64,000 nucleotides of DNA from Halarcobacter mediterraneus. Lineage in GTDB: Bacteria > Campylobacterota > Campylobacteria > Campylobacterales > Arcobacteraceae. The stretch covers positions 248,001-312,000 of the forward strand of contig NZ_NXIE01000003.1 in the NCBI RefSeq assembly GCF_004116625.1, read 5' to 3'. Below, in pieces: positions 18,662 to 23,058 of the stretch (position 1 is the first letter of the stretch; each line of letters begins with the position of its first letter). The notes beneath the pieces were generated by a model. It was not told the DNA's origin, searched no databases, and saw nothing but the letters and a program-made list of their open reading frames with translations. The position numbers and the translations under genes are program-made.

Positions 18662-19351
18662 TTAAAAGACTCTTTTACTTAATAAGTGAGTTAAGGGTTC
18701 TTTTAAAAGTTTTTTTGCTTCTTTAAAATCTATTTCATTCTCTTTACAAAGCTTTTTTAGAAGTGATGATAGGTTTTGTTTTTTATTTAAGTTTTTTAGT
18801 AAATAGTAGATTATAGGGTTTATTTCTCTATAAATAACATCATTTGTCTCAAAATCATAATAAATCACTAAATAGTTTTCTCTTTTTCTTTCACACTCTT
18901 TATTTATCAAATCATATTTGAATTTTTTAATTCTTGCACTTTGACTTAATTTATAACTATTTTTATAAGAGAATTTCTTTTGTTTCTTCTCTTTATACTC
19001 TTTCATATAAAGTTCTATTTCTATCCAATCATAAAATAAAAGTTCATAAATATATTTTTTATCATGGAAGAATTTATTCTTTTTTACAAACTTTCGATAG
19101 TCATTTGGTATTTGCCATACAAAAGGTGTTTCAGGAGTATCTTTCATAAAAGCTTTTATTGTTTTTTCTAAATCTTTTTCATCAATTAGTTCAATATAAA
19201 GAGGAAAACTATTTTGTATAACTTCATAATATCTTTGATATACAAGTTTTTGATAAACAGCAACTGCTGAATTAGCAACTTCTTCATTTTGAGATAATAA
19301 ATTATCAAAAAATCTCTGTTCAATATCTTTTTCTAAAATTTTTTCAGACAT
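18662..19351 (-). CDS. hvfC: DUF2063 protein, HvfC-type partner of the MNIO enzyme
   Basis: A 229-residue cytoplasmic protein. The N-terminal DUF2063 region (about 5-110: AVYQKLVYQRYYEVIQNSFP, then ETPFVWQIPNDYRKFV) is followed by a charged region and a winged-helix-like C-terminus (about 165-229: INPIIYYLLKNLNKKQNLSSLL). In HvfABC/bufferin systems the DUF2063 protein binds the precursor peptide and is needed for modification by the DUF692 enzyme. Its start overlaps the stop of the MNIO gene by 8 bases (ATGTCTGA), which supports a working pair. The C-terminal domain is basic, but DNA binding is not implied. Confidence 0.87.
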   Translation of the reverse strand: MSEKILEKDIEQRFFDNLLSQNEEVANSAVAVYQKLVYQRYYEVIQNSFPLYIELIDEKDLEKTIKAFMKDTPETPFVWQIPNDYRKFVKKNKFFHDKKYIYELLFYDWIEIELYMKEYKEKKQKKFSYKNSYKLSQSARIKKFKYDLINKECERKRENYLVIYYDFETNDVIYREINPIIYYLLKNLNKKQNLSSLLKKLCKENEIDFKEAKKLLKEPLTHLLSKRVF

Positions 19352-20165
19352 TTTGAACTCTTTTTACTATATCACTCATTTGAATATATTCTTGCTCAAG
19401 TTCACTTAAAGGAGGAATATTATTATCCCTTTCTATCATAACAGGAGCTTGTATTTGTTTTAATGTATATTCTAAAAGTTTCCAGACTCCTGAACAAATA
19501 GGCATACCATGAGAATCAATTTTTAAACCTAATTCTTCATCACTATAATGCCCTGCCATATGCATATAAGCAACTTTGCTTTTATCTATTTCATCTATAA
19601 ATTTTCTTGCTTTAAAAGAGTGGTTTACAGAGTTTACAAAGACATTATTCACATCTAAAAGCATTTTTGCTCCAGATTTTTCTAAGACTTCATTTATAAA
19701 ATCAACTTCTCTCATCTCTGAATAAGGGACATAATAATATGTAGCATTTTCAAGTATCAAGTTTCTTTGAATAATATCCTCAACTTCTTTTACTCTATCA
19801 CTAATTATTTCAACCATTTTTTTAGTCATAGGCACAGGTAATAATTCATAAGATTGTTTTCCATGTAAAGAAGAGAAAGAAAGATGTTCAGAATAATATT
19901 CTATTTTATATCTATCTAAAAAGTTTTTTATCTGTTTGATGAACTTTTTATTTAGTCCATCAACAGAACCTATAGATAAAGATAAACCATGAGCAACGGT
20001 AGGTCTAGAAAAAACAGCTTCCTCAAAGGCTTTTTCATAGATTCTTGGCATATGCATCCAATTTTCAGGAGTGACTTCCCACCAATCTGGTTGAAAATCA
20101 CTTGAAGAGATATCTAATAAAAAATCACTTCTTAAACCTAAACCACAGCCTTTTAAATTTATCAT
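19344..20165 (-). CDS. hvfB: DUF692 multinuclear non-haem iron oxidase (MNIO), HvfB-type RiPP-modifying enzyme
   Basis: A 273-residue TIM-barrel enzyme. All expected metal-ligand blocks are present: TVAHGLSLSIG (His), YSEHLSF (Glu, His), ILENATYY (Glu), LLDVNNVFVN (Asp, Asn), MHMAGHY (His), KIDSHGMP (Asp, His) and MIERDNNIP (Glu). MNIO enzymes oxidise cysteine residues in peptide substrates; HvfB-type members make oxazolone-thioamide groups from cysteines in GKCG motifs, giving copper ligands. Here the gene follows directly (18 bases) a secreted peptide with four GKCG repeats and overlaps the DUF2063 gene. The exact product chemistry is inferred from the family. Confidence 0.93.
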   Translation of the reverse strand: MINLKGCGLGLRSDFLLDISSSDFQPDWWEVTPENWMHMPRIYEKAFEEAVFSRPTVAHGLSLSIGSVDGLNKKFIKQIKNFLDRYKIEYYSEHLSFSSLHGKQSYELLPVPMTKKMVEIISDRVKEVEDIIQRNLILENATYYYVPYSEMREVDFINEVLEKSGAKMLLDVNNVFVNSVNHSFKARKFIDEIDKSKVAYMHMAGHYSDEELGLKIDSHGMPICSGVWKLLEYTLKQIQAPVMIERDNNIPPLSELEQEYIQMSDIVKRVQNV

Positions 20166-20183
20166 TTAACTATCTTCACCATT

Positions 20184-20495
20184 TCATCCACATTTTCCAG
20201 CGCCACAAGAACCTTCAACTTTCTTTTTTGCTTTATCATTTGCACCGCATTTCCCAGCTCCACAAGAAGCTACAGATTTTTTACCTGCATTTCCTGACAT
20301 TTCACCTTTATTAGCTTTTTTCTTAGTATCGCCACCGCATTTTCCAGCTCCACAAGAACCTTTTTTTTCTACTTTTTTAGCTTCTCCACCACACTTTCCA
20401 GCACCACAAGAACCATTTCCTGCGTATGCACCTGTACTAGATAGTGCTGCCCCAAGTAAAACACCTGCTAATTTTATTTTTGTATTTTTTTTCAT
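20184..20495 (-). CDS. hvfA: Secreted Cys-repeat precursor peptide (HvfA/bufferin-like RiPP)
   Basis: A 103-residue peptide. Residues 1-25 are a Sec-type signal peptide ending in AYA. The mature part is Gly/Lys-rich and carries four copies of a nine-residue unit: GSCGAGKCG at 28-36, 46-54 and 95-103, and ASCGAGKCG at 76-84. The last copy ends the protein. All eight cysteines lie in these units. Known HvfA peptides carry EGKCG; here the Glu is Ala in every copy. It has its own AAAAAAGGAT ribosome site and lies just upstream of the MNIO and DUF2063 genes. Expected role: a modified, copper-binding periplasmic peptide. Confidence 0.9.
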   Translation of the reverse strand: MKKNTKIKLAGVLLGAALSSTGAYAGNGSCGAGKCGGEAKKVEKKGSCGAGKCGGDTKKKANKGEMSGNAGKKSVASCGAGKCGANDKAKKKVEGSCGAGKCG

Positions 20496-20559
20496 TCATA
20501 TCCTTTTTTTGTATTTATATTCTATTTATTTACTTTTAAAATAATTTAAAAAAATCAAA

Positions 20560-21138
20560 CTATTTTTCTACTGCTGAAACCTCAATAATAAGTTTTACAT
20601 TCTCACTTACAGCAACTCCACCAAATTCTAAAGCTTTGTTCCATTTAAGTCCATAATCCATTCTATTTACTTCACCTTCTAAAGTGAAACCTACTCTATT
20701 ATTCCCTTTAAAATCTTTTACTGTTGCAATATCATCAACTTCTAGCTTAACTTCTTTTGTTACACCTCTCATTGTTAAATCGCCAGTCATTACTCCTTCA
20801 TCACCATCAGCCTTATAAGATTTCATTTTAAAAGTGATTTCAGGGAATTTATCTGCTGCAAAAAAGTCATCACTTCTTAGGTGATTATCTCTTTTTTCAA
20901 TTCCTGTATTAATTGATGTTGCTTTTATTGTTGCTTCTAAAGCATTAAAAGTCTTATTTTTATAATCAAAATCTATTTTTGCATCATAATCACTAAACTT
21001 TCCTTTTACATTTGTAATCATTAAATGCTTTACAGAAAAACCTACATCTGAGTGCCCTTTGTCTATTGAATGTGGTGTTGCATTTGCTAAGCCAACTGAA
21101 AGTAGTCCTGCTGCAAATAGTTTTAATAAAGTTTTCAT
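20560..21138 (-). CDS. YceI-family periplasmic protein
   Basis: A 192-residue protein with a signal peptide (1-20, cleavage near GLANA-TP) and a complete YceI lipocalin-like barrel: HSIDKGHSDVGFSVKHLMI, the NTGIEKRDNHLRSDDFFAADKFPEI block and the GDLTMRGVTKEVKL strand. Characterised YceI proteins bind long isoprenoids such as polyprenyl quinones in the periplasm. It is the first gene of the minus-strand run leading into hvfA-hvfB-hvfC (64-bp gap) and faces the two-component system. Its link to the peptide system is by position and probable shared regulation only. Confidence 0.92.
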   Translation of the reverse strand: MKTLLKLFAAGLLSVGLANATPHSIDKGHSDVGFSVKHLMITNVKGKFSDYDAKIDFDYKNKTFNALEATIKATSINTGIEKRDNHLRSDDFFAADKFPEITFKMKSYKADGDEGVMTGDLTMRGVTKEVKLEVDDIATVKDFKGNNRVGFTLEGEVNRMDYGLKWNKALEFGGVAVSENVKLIIEVSAVEK

Positions 21139-21182: not shown

Positions 21183-21212
21183 TGTAAAGTTATTGTGTAG
21201 AACCTGTGTAGA
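21183..21212. promoter_or_regulatory. Three 11-bp-phased direct repeats (candidate OmpR-type regulator site)
   Basis: TGTAAAGT at 21183, TGTGTAGA at 21194 and TGTGTAGA at 21205 start exactly 11 bp apart. Winged-helix OmpR-family regulators bind head-to-tail repeats with this spacing. The site lies between yceI and the regulator gene, about 45-75 bp from the yceI start and 34-63 bp from the regulator start. It could serve both promoters. Confidence 0.65.
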
Positions 21213-21245: not shown

Positions 21246-21905
21246 ATGAAAATACTACTACTTGAAGATGATTTAATACTAAATGAAATAATTGAAGAAT
21301 TTTTAGAAGGTCTAGGTTATACTGTAACTTGTGTTTATGATGGGATGAAAGCAAGTGAGACTATATATGATGAACAATTTGACTTACTAATTTTAGACGT
21401 AAATGTTCCAACAATAACTGGTTTTGACTTTTTAAAAAGTTTAAGAGAAGAATCAATTACCACACCTGCAATTTTTATAACATCATTAAACTCTATTGAA
21501 GATATAGAAGAAGGTTTTAATGCAGGGGCTGATGATTATTTGAAAAAACCTTTTGAATTAAAAGAATTAGAATTAAGAATAAACAATATAAAAAGGCTAC
21601 TTCATTTAGATACAGATGAACTAGCTATTGATGAAAAAATTAAATTTAACACTAAATTAAATTATATTAACTATGAAGGAATAAAAACAAAACTTCCATT
21701 AAAAGAAGCACAAGTTTTAAAGTACCTTTTAAAAAATACAAATAGGTGTGTTTCGCAAGATGAATTATCTTCGAATATCTGGTCATATGAGTCAGCACCA
21801 ACTTCTTCTACGATAAGAACTTATATAAAAAATATAAGAAAAATAGTAGGAGAAGATTATATAGAAACAATAAAAGGAGTAGGTTATAGATTTAACAAGA
21901 AATGA
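21246..21905 (+). CDS. OmpR/PhoB-family response regulator
   Basis: A 219-residue regulator. The receiver domain (1-115) has the acidic pair E7-D8-D9, the phosphorylation site D51 (LILDVNVP), the T78-S79 switch region and K100 (DDYLKKPFEL). The winged-helix DNA-binding domain (about 125-219) ends with the usual TIRTYIKNIRKIVGEDYIETIKGVGYRF pattern. It overlaps the following histidine kinase gene and is divergent from yceI-hvfABC. Together with the phased repeats in the gap this suggests that it controls that operon and itself; the signal is unknown. Confidence 0.93.
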   Translation: MKILLLEDDLILNEIIEEFLEGLGYTVTCVYDGMKASETIYDEQFDLLILDVNVPTITGFDFLKSLREESITTPAIFITSLNSIEDIEEGFNAGADDYLKKPFELKELELRINNIKRLLHLDTDELAIDEKIKFNTKLNYINYEGIKTKLPLKEAQVLKYLLKNTNRCVSQDELSSNIWSYESAPTSSTIRTYIKNIRKIVGEDYIETIKGVGYRFNKK

Positions 21906-23058
21906 GAGAATCACTTTTCTTAGATTTTTAGGACTTTATTTAGGTTCTTCTTTTATTCTTCTTACTATAATTTTTTGGCAGTTTTATAAAATTGAATATA
22001 AACTTTATTATGACTTAGTTTCTTCAAATATGCAAAATATTGCTTCTAAGATTTCAGCAAATATTATATATGCAGATATGTCTGGTTTATCTATTGATAC
22101 TTCCAAAATATCTGATAGTATTCAATATAAATATGCTTTATATGACATAAATCATAATAAAATTGCAGGGAACATTCAAGAAGAGGTAAATACAAAAGAA
22201 CCTATTCAAAGGATAAAAGGTAGTTACATCTTAGTAGATAGTACTCCAAAAGGTCACCTTGGCGTATACCACATTGCCATTCAAGAAAATAGTTTCATAA
22301 AGATTAGAAAAGAATTACTTGAAGATATTGTTTTTTATTTTGTTTTAATTTTTTCTCTCTTAAGTTTAATAGGATACTACTTAGCAAATTTGTTTATTAA
22401 CCCAATTATCAATGAAAGAAGAAAGTTAAATACTTTTATAAAAGATACAACCCATGAATTAAATACTCCTATTACTGCTATTTTAATGTCTACAGGAAAA
22501 GGAGCACCTTTGACAGAAAAAAATATGCAAAGAATAAATTTAAGTGCAAAAAGAATTTCAGAAATATACAAAGACTTAGTTTATTTATTTTTACAAGATA
22601 ATAAAAAGATTCACGAACCTAGAAATATATCTTTAGATGAAGTTATAAATGAACAACTTGAATACTTCCAAGCTTTTGCAAATAAAAAGAAACTAACTAT
22701 TAATTCAGAATTAGAGAAAACTATTTATAAAATAGATAAAGAGAGTTTTATTCGTATGTTCAATAATGTTGTTTCAAATGCTATCAAATATAATAAAATA
22801 AATGGAACTATTTCTGTAGAACTAAAAGACTATATTTTAACAGTGAAAGATACAGGTATTGGAATAAAAAAAGATAGATTAAAAGATATTTTTAAAAGAT
22901 ACTATAGAGCAACAAAAGAACAAGGTGGTTTTGGGGTAGGATTAAGTATTGTTTATCATATTTGTAAAACATACGGAATAAAAATTAATGTAGAATCTAA
23001 AGAAGGAGAAGGAACAAGTTTCACTTTTAAACTAAAGAAAAAAGAAGATAAATCTTAA
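21886..23058 (+). CDS. Membrane sensor histidine kinase with no canonical start codon
   Basis: The coherent kinase frame opens after a stop at 21880 and reads IDLTRNERITFLRFLGLYLG. The first in-frame ATG (22030) would delete the first membrane helix, so I place the start at the ATA of 21886, 6 bases after an AGGAG. That position is an inference. Helix 1 is about residues 12-35, a periplasmic loop of about 100 residues follows, and helix 2 is near 150-172. The HisKA motif is TTHELNTPITA (His phosphosite) and the ATPase boxes are NNVVSNAIKYN, VKDTGIGI and GGFGVGLSIVYHI. It overlaps the regulator gene by 20 bases and is its natural partner. Confidence 0.82.
   Translation: MDLTRNERITFLRFLGLYLGSSFILLTIIFWQFYKIEYKLYYDLVSSNMQNIASKISANIIYADMSGLSIDTSKISDSIQYKYALYDINHNKIAGNIQEEVNTKEPIQRIKGSYILVDSTPKGHLGVYHIAIQENSFIKIRKELLEDIVFYFVLIFSLLSLIGYYLANLFINPIINERRKLNTFIKDTTHELNTPITAILMSTGKGAPLTEKNMQRINLSAKRISEIYKDLVYLFLQDNKKIHEPRNISLDEVINEQLEYFQAFANKKKLTINSELEKTIYKIDKESFIRMFNNVVSNAIKYNKINGTISVELKDYILTVKDTGIGIKKDRLKDIFKRYYRATKEQGGFGVGLSIVYHICKTYGIKINVESKEGEGTSFTFKLKKKEDKS

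Follow-up and report, generated by a model that had tools for sequence, protein, structure and literature searches.

A YceI-headed HvfABC-type gene cluster in Halarcobacter mediterraneus, its probable copper context, and related peptide genes kept without the modifying enzymes

Background

The locus described here raises the question of what a small, cysteine-rich secreted peptide does when its gene stands between yceI and genes of the MNIO (DUF692) and DUF2063 families, and whether enzymatic modification, copper and YceI all belong to the answer. It lies in Halarcobacter mediterraneus (contig NZ_NXIE01000003.1, positions 248,001 to 312,000), in a stretch of 64,000 nucleotides referred to below as the window, and the closest named records that were found belong to Halarcobacter, Arcobacter and Poseidonibacter. 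Four minus-strand genes follow one another in the order yceI (20560-21138), the peptide gene (hvfA-like, 20184-20495), the MNIO/DUF692 gene (hvfB-type, 19344-20165) and the DUF2063 gene (hvfC-type, 18662-19351).

On sequence grounds, the cluster is a real HvfABC-type (oxazolin-type) system, in a Campylobacterota variant with YceI. As a whole explanation, it is probably a copper-stress operon that would make a thiooxazole-modified periplasmic Cu(I) peptide. The enzyme class is already known; what is newer, and lies outside 18662-21138, is the copper-type operator, the alternation of DoxX and YceI, and how often the peptide persists where its enzymes are missing.

Organisation and identity of the cluster

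The first-pass annotation of this DNA had described a secreted peptide of 103 residues with a signal peptide and four cysteine units, an 18-bp spacer before the MNIO gene, an overlap of the latter with the DUF2063 gene, and a YceI protein at the head in the absence of a DoxX-like one, all of which is borne out. The open reading frame (ORF) 20184-20495 encodes 103 residues with four SCGAGKCG units and eight cysteines, starting with MKKNTKIKLAGVLLGAALSSTGAYA, a segment recognised as signal-type by eye and from its conservation (25 codons, 20421-20495, with the cleavage site placed by eye), which contains the motif KLAGxLLGAAL. The gap from yceI to the peptide gene is 64 bp, that from the peptide gene to the MNIO gene 18 bp (20166-20183), and the MNIO and DUF2063 genes share 8 bp. 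YceI matches PF04264 with 151.1 bits (gathering score 23.7) and PDB 5w37 (E 4.4e-42), and no DoxX is found in the window's cluster.

As for the enzymes, the MNIO matches PF05114 (290.7 bits) and PDB 3bww (E 1.7e-47), and the conserved DUF692 blocks noted in the earlier annotation are indeed there: H59, H94, E139 and H202 are invariant among 103 aligned MNIOs, and D171, D217, H219, E245 and D247 are kept in 102 of them. These histidine, aspartate and glutamate residues we take to be the metal ligands. Its partner scores above the gathering score for both PF09836 (DUF2063, 31.4 bits) and PF22106 (NGO1945_C, 33.1 bits), and matches PDB 3dee (E 2.9e-4).

The peptide contains the HvfA repeat domain NF050137 (38.3 bits vs. 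a cut-off of 19.5, NCBIfam), and the order precursor, MNIO, partner is that of HvfA/Buf_EGKCG systems. The EGKCG pentamer of Buf_EGKCG precursors is not present, the units being made of AGKCG and SCG with no glutamate at position 1. The earlier label, HvfABC/bufferin-like, thus stands in its first half (NF050137; HvfB as the best model for the MNIO) and falls in its second. A DUF2282 or Buf2 bufferin would share the MNIO and DUF2063 pair, the Sec signal peptide and copper, and the BufB model does give 249.8 bits on the MNIO; the HvfB model, however, scores 310.1 bits, the HvfA repeat domain is present, and the peptide matches no Pfam family, DUF2282 included, at E up to 0.1. The DUF2282 identity was rejected on these scores, and a bufferin of either type is hardly credible.

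A Cys-repeat precursor was found at most 900 bp upstream of the MNIO gene in 56 of 60 Campylobacterales loci, so that the pairing is not due to chance. In the other four (L054, L157, L166 and L169) none was seen upstream, only 394 bp being available in L169; enzyme pairs lacking a precursor, which the earlier annotation had named as its refuting case, are therefore rare: four of the 60 loci at the most, and one of these is truncated by a contig end. The reverse case, which it had not foreseen, is common (see below). Concerning the four loci, L157:2153-3715 is a single 521-aa ORF in which MNIO and DUF2063 are fused. L054 (genome G043) carries an MNIO and DUF2063 pair after a hemB-like gene (by eye), no Cys-rich precursor being seen nearby, and its MNIO forms a long branch in the MNIO tree, which holds 58 of the 60 rows (omitting the fused L157 and the partial L159).

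Of the 104 genomes of the family (Arcobacteraceae), 37 have a PF05114 match, as have 39 of the 398 in the order sample. Both tallies include G091; its partial match (L138) belongs to another gene, in what looks by eye like a sugar-type locus, and was not taken for an MNIO, leaving 36 family genomes that keep hvfBC.

Among the closest known systems is hvfABC(X)/oxazolin of nontypeable Haemophilus influenzae, with which the cluster shares the precursor, the MNIO, the DUF2063-type partner and secreted paired cysteines at CGxGKC spacing (PMC13419390). It differs in having SCGAGKCG instead of AEGKCGEGKCG, YceI where H. influenzae has the DoxX-like HvfX (absent from the window's cluster), a divergent CrdRS-like regulator, and Ser and Asn at two proposed substrate contacts. 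Fontiphorin and the other EGKCG captophorins (Buf_EGKCG) are alike in the MNIO-partner pair and the Lys-Cys-Gly repeats, and their products are copper-binding and of the 5-thiooxazole class (PMC13097082); captophorins are described for Pseudomonadota, and the main text of that paper contains neither 'Campylobacter' nor 'YceI'. Likewise, 'campylobacter', 'epsilonproteo' and 'YceI' are absent from the main text of PMC12452194, whose figures and tables may include such genomes. Among the literature matches listed, with most subscription journals and supplements outside the scope, none joined YceI or CrdRS with DUF692 and none treated HvfABC-type clusters in Campylobacterota.

Candidate modification sites

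In the precursors linked to the window's 31-row MNIO clade, cysteine is followed by glycine in all 252 cases, and in 120 of 124 pairs Ser or Ala stands before the first cysteine; beyond this clade the preceding residue is Lys in 47 of 64. The enzymes vary in parallel. Ser13, the residue after GLGLR, is Ser in 31/31 clade members and in 2/29 other Campylobacterales loci, and outside Campylobacterota (mostly Pseudomonadota) it is Arg in 48 of 50, with one Gln and one sequence lacking the motif. Asn248 (ERDN) occurs in 56 of 60 Campylobacterales MNIOs vs. Phe (ERDF) in 48 of the 50 outside sequences, the remaining two lacking the motif. Both positions were mapped onto FonB Arg16 and Phe250 by motif, and not by an alignment with FonB.

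The HvfA-type product, which the earlier annotation had given as oxazolone-thioamide, has since been reassigned, for oxazolin and related products, to 5-thiooxazole, also at -4 Da (PMC13419390, PMC13097082); its proposed mass test of -4 Da per cysteine keeps its validity. FonBC is reported to tolerate Ala, Arg and Thr at the Lys position and, among the variants tested for the Gly after Cys (position-5 double variants), to accept only Ala, while substitution of Glu6 impairs turnover (PMC13097082). The earlier annotation named cysteines in GKCG motifs as the targets; there are eight candidate cysteines, and the first one of each unit follows Ser instead of Lys. Judging from sequence, up to eight cysteines are expected to be modified, and the Ser-Cys sites are the less certain half.

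Control region and copper-related neighbours

The 107-bp interval between yceI and the regulator gene holds 11-bp direct repeats (CTACACA, CTACACA, CTTTACA), which form a candidate operator on the minus strand (21183-21211) made of two overlapping 18-mers, CTACACAGGTTCTACACA (21194-21211) and CTACACAATAACTTTACA (21183-21200). Its core is conserved in 15/15 aligned congeneric loci, among them L040, where yceI is missing and it stands before hvfA. A matrix built from the 15 congeneric loci was tried on 41 held-out loci. In 24 of them (expected 0.35), the highest-scoring site of the entire locus, both strands included, was correctly oriented and at most 220 bp upstream of the operon; the 41 come from 45 non-congeneric loci, L054, L157, L166 and L169 being omitted since they have no precursor. 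Matches extend to DoxX-type clusters of other families (L152, L156, L158 and L171).

Diverging from the operon are the genes of an OmpR-family response regulator (21246-21905, plus strand; PF00072, PF00486), the probable regulator of the operon, and of a sensor histidine kinase (listed ORF 22030-23058, plus strand; PF02518, 90.2 bits). A response regulator is found near the cluster in 29 of 60 loci, and 20 of the 60 have efflux genes of the CrdAB-CzcBA type no more than about 8 kb away. L052 runs hvfABC, response regulator, histidine kinase, crdA, crdB, czcB, czcA, and both hvfA and crdA are preceded by good sites; in L154 a copper-family P-type ATPase adjoins the cluster (TIGR01511, 619 bits, cut-off 397). 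About 62 kb from the cluster, the window's own genome has CusA/CzcA-type RND, OEP, CusB-type and YtkA/CrdA-like genes, accompanied by a two-component pair of their own. This is the order CrdA(YtkA)-OEP-CusB/HlyD-RND plus two-component pair of Helicobacter pylori CrdRS/CrdAB-CzcBA, near hvf in many relatives; the Crd names used here are our assignment from gene order and families.

In a response-regulator tree (43 of 47 rows, short search), judged by the Shimodaira-Hasegawa-like approximate likelihood ratio test (SH-aLRT) only, the window's 15-row clade has a support of 99, and it groups at 89 with L147 and a clade of 11 mostly Crd-linked Arcobacteraceae regulators, including the genome's own crd regulator and that of L052. 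Such a grouping is consistent with the duplication of one copper regulator. From sequence, the copper context of the cluster is supported by synteny with CrdAB-CzcBA-type efflux genes. A 21-nt crdA-associated sequence is reported to be bound by CrdR in H. pylori (PMC9927306).

The modified peptide could instead be aimed mainly at another soft metal or at a redox stress such as nitric oxide, to which CrdRS of H. pylori responds too (PMC9927306). The DoxX and YceI families are not copper-specific, and a pattern search of the window's own genome returned, besides the operator, two other sites (L134:1582 and L135:1651, contig C1 of G000; none with a reversed control pattern), both preceding small cytochrome-like genes and one beside a related kinase. 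Against this reading stand the neighbours just listed, namely CusA/CzcA-type RND, CrdA/YtkA and copper P-type ATPase genes, and the copper binding of the related products studied (PMC13097082), and it is considered quite unlikely.

Proposed function and points against it

In the copper-stress explanation, expression of yceI-hvfA-hvfB-hvfC is probably activated by the CrdRS-like pair (21246-23058) through the tandem 11-bp repeats at 21183-21211, to which it would bind. HvfC and HvfB would recognise the peptide in the cytoplasm via its unusually conserved signal peptide (KLAGxLLGAAL), and the iron enzyme would oxidise up to eight Cys-Gly sites to 5-thiooxazoles, i.e. -4 Da each and -32 Da if complete. 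The modified peptide, once exported by Sec, would keep Cu(I) bound in the periplasm and so complement the efflux pump of the CrdAB-CzcBA type, and YceI would stand in for the DoxX of other Campylobacterales. What the sequences show is the gene content, the synteny, a conserved operator, the paralogy of YceI and of the regulator, and a signal peptide whose conservation accompanies the enzymes; the modification, the binding of copper, its role as signal, the contact between regulator and operator, and the part played by YceI are inferred.

Several results weigh against this explanation. At the level of profiles, the MNIO stays below the cut-off of the HvfB equivalog (310.1 vs. 360 bits), even though this is the top one of five models, and neither the HvfC equivalog (81.6 vs. 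142 bits) nor the full-length HvfA equivalog NF050188 (20.7 vs. 95 bits) reaches its cut-off. Ser13 and Asn248 are positions discussed as substrate contacts at which the window's enzyme is unlike EGKCG enzymes, and Ser before the first cysteine is not among the FonBC substitutions cited above (PMC13097082). The operator was missed by the strict count in 17 of the 41 held-out loci, including L052 and L137, which have a site that is not the top one (in L052 a higher-scoring match lies inside the kinase gene), and L145 and L148, where the site is more than 220 bp away; in the window's own genome, no convincing operator was found before crdA. Finally, 15 Arcobacteraceae genomes retain the peptide with neither MNIO nor HvfC.

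Peptide genes in genomes lacking the enzymes

NF050137 was matched in 46 of 104 family genomes, and the 15 positive genomes lacking an MNIO comprise 12 of genus g11 plus G091, G109 and G023; in G100 a match below the cut-off was not confirmed. The HvfC profile was matched in 0/15 of them vs. 5/5 positive controls. Five of these genomes are single-contig and 99-100% complete, and G078 is 76% complete. Sixteen enzyme-less loci were read, i.e. the 15 genomes plus a second copy in G024 (L218), and yield 17 peptide sequences since L206 holds two; L213 (nothing found) and L216 and L217 (other architectures, MNIO-positive genomes) are not included in these counts. In most of these loci the order is czcA, operator, yceI, hvfA and a convergent MATE gene, hvfBC being absent (in L200, the MATE gene lies 20 to 30 bp from hvfA). 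In each of the 15 genomes the peptide gene stands beside yceI, DoxX or efflux genes, with yceI in 13 and DoxX in 1 of the 16 loci, and G024 carries a yceI-hvfA unit without enzymes as well as, elsewhere, a hvfABC cluster of the DoxX type (L036). In 14 of 16 loci the best operator score falls directly in front of yceI or hvfA, the exceptions being L205 and L215. A kept operator argues against dead genes, expression not being proven thereby.

Since the peptide is kept in 15 genomes devoid of MNIO and HvfC, modification is not needed for whatever retains the gene. One may suppose that the peptide is mainly an unmodified, metallothionein-like thiol chelator of copper, whose affinity or redox stability hvfBC improves as an accessory. 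Besides the 15 genomes and the 14 operator sites, the CGxGKC paired spacing, which is mostly retained in the enzyme-less peptides, speaks for it; the retention of hvfBC in 36 family genomes and the tight constraint on Cys-Gly (252/252) and on the signal peptide speak against it, and the enzyme-less copies could be slowly decaying. For the window's peptide we regard this as rather unlikely, and keep the modified Cu(I) peptide as the preferred reading.

A relaxation of the Cys-Gly rule in the absence of the enzymes was also considered and judged weak. Cysteines with no following glycine number 17 of 143 in enzyme-less peptides vs. 0 of 252 in the enzyme-linked window clade, but the cases are confined to 5 of 17 sequences, with 13 of the 17 in L201 and L206, and 6 of 25 enzyme-linked sequences outside the window clade also violate it.

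The signal peptide was compared as well. In the same 21 loci for both proteins, identity in the signal peptide is 0.737 for HvfA vs. 0.418 for YceI (whose start is badly trimmed in two rows, L044 and L049), the mature parts being at 0.669 and 0.708, respectively. A matrix trained on 18 enzyme-linked precursors from other families gave median scores of 16.2 for enzyme-linked (n=36) and 8.9 for enzyme-less (n=17) precursors of the family (p=5.5e-7), and of -4.9 for 24 enzyme-less sequences of other families. The statistical tests ignore relatedness among genomes, and 12 of the 15 enzyme-less genomes belong to one genus, g11, in which several signal peptides are still motif-like. A first regular expression had matched 54 of 56 enzyme-linked and 4 of 41 enzyme-less sequences; because it was fitted to the enzyme-linked set, the leader claim rests on the matrix. 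For Buf1, preliminary evidence makes the signal peptide part of the recognition sequence (PMC12452194), and the present comparison of sequences independently supports such a leader role in another family.

In the order sample, the repeat domain was found in 74 of 398 genomes (66 above the cut-off), 23 of which have an MNIO; genomes without one thus number 51 of 74, or 43 of 66 above the cut-off (8 of the 51 being below it), the MNIO and repeat-domain counts being taken to refer to the same 398 genomes. The model hits 23 of the 38 MNIO genomes, in 34 of which a precursor is found by reading; because it misses true precursors in this way, 51/74 overstates the enzyme-less share, and 51/85 is fairer. 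Among the 51 genomes, the loci of 27 were read (8 in the family set and 19 others). The 20 loci (19 genomes) read outside the family code mostly for secreted or lipoprotein-like peptides, with a DoxX match within about 2.2 kb in ten of them (L219, L220, L224, L226-L231 and a weak fragment in L232). By comparison, Buf_EGKCG precursors without MNIO were found in 67 of 2583 genomes and called rare in PMC12452194, where a function without post-translational modifications, or a loss of expression or function, is already offered as a reading.

The repeat is also found as a tail on larger secreted proteins in L234:3993-4616, L235:4031-4609 and L236:1809-2345, with no MNIO match in these genomes; the KCGxGKCG-tailed protein is a cytochrome c by Pfam in L234 and L236, and looks alike by eye in L235. 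In the MNIO-positive G024, the product of L217:5981-6574 is a PCu(A)C copper chaperone (130 bits) that carries three SCGQGKCG units as a C-terminal tail and is possibly a protein substrate. L206:6013-6327, directly after an enzyme-less hvfA, codes for a second, lipoprotein-like Cys-rich peptide with a lipobox-like stretch, and L216:5774-6286 codes for a secreted, Cys-rich protein of 171 aa with two CGAGKCG units and no Pfam match, a second gene of this kind in the MNIO-positive congener G005.

Association with YceI or DoxX

YceI proteins are periplasmic and bind isoprenoids. Of the 60 MNIO loci, 22 have YceI next to the cluster, 16 have DoxX, 22 have neither and none has both, as determined by phmmer with Campylobacterota seeds, which divergent DoxX could escape, some loci also ending at contig ends. 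In the MNIO tree, 21 YceI rows fall inside one 31-row clade (support 100/100) that has no DoxX and ten rows with neither gene; L159, from another family and outside the tree, is a further YceI-linked locus. In 50 loci outside Campylobacterota, mostly from Pseudomonadota, YceI was not matched (one seed, E up to 1e-5). This pattern suggests that DoxX and YceI are alternative partners; since it is clustered by descent, their exclusivity is a description and not a test. A candidate DoxX for the cluster elsewhere in the window's genome was rejected, the sole match lying on another contig beside sigma-factor/FecR-like genes (neighbours by eye).

YceI genes are present in 15/15 genomes searched, and the hvf-linked one is a separate paralog, apart from the other close YceI of these genomes: one clade (96/89) unites 11 of the 12 linked rows, L159 standing apart, and the nearest outside row (98/98) is the L194/L218 copy, which precedes an enzyme-less peptide gene. 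The structures PDB 5w37, 2fgs, 1y0g and 3hpe belong to the same family.

Whether YceI could be a co-transcribed bystander, with no role in making or using the peptide, has to be weighed against this paralogy. The ten of 31 window-clade loci with neither YceI nor DoxX make YceI dispensable, and its sequence contains no cysteine. The linked copies nevertheless form a clade of their own, they never occur with DoxX in the 60 loci, and yceI stays with hvfA in 13 of 16 enzyme-less loci and in L159, i.e. in another family. On balance, a bystander role is somewhat less likely than not.

Other features of the locus

The reading frame of the kinase is open upstream of its first ATG/GTG/TTG (22030), up to about 21883 inside the end of the regulator gene. 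This extension (21883-22030) is membrane-segment-like and has no standard start codon, and translation may begin at a rare one or by coupled initiation. The terminator scan found none in this AT-rich stretch, and promoter-like sites (24 vs. 16.7 expected) were uninformative. Also, the tandem-repeat search listed a 29-bp two-copy repeat at 20477-20537, and the units of the peptide are absent from its list.

Conclusions

Taken more broadly, KCGxGKCG peptides may primarily be secreted thiol copper peptides, to which MNIO-HvfC is an optional addition, the signal peptide having been recruited as a leader that drifts after enzyme loss; we give this general view slightly less than an even chance. If it is true, Campylobacterales peptides beside YceI, DoxX or a Crd-type pump, often with a copper-type operator, outnumber the enzyme-bearing genomes. 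The NCBIfam model labels these peptides 'oxazolone/thioamide-modified' even in genomes where no modifying enzyme was found. The hvf cluster is now supplied with a candidate regulator and a candidate operator, and the family offers a natural experiment in which one locus, under the same control site, occurs with and without the modifying enzymes. This makes testable what a thiooxazole gains over plain thiols, and whether a Sec signal peptide serves as the leader of an MNIO complex.

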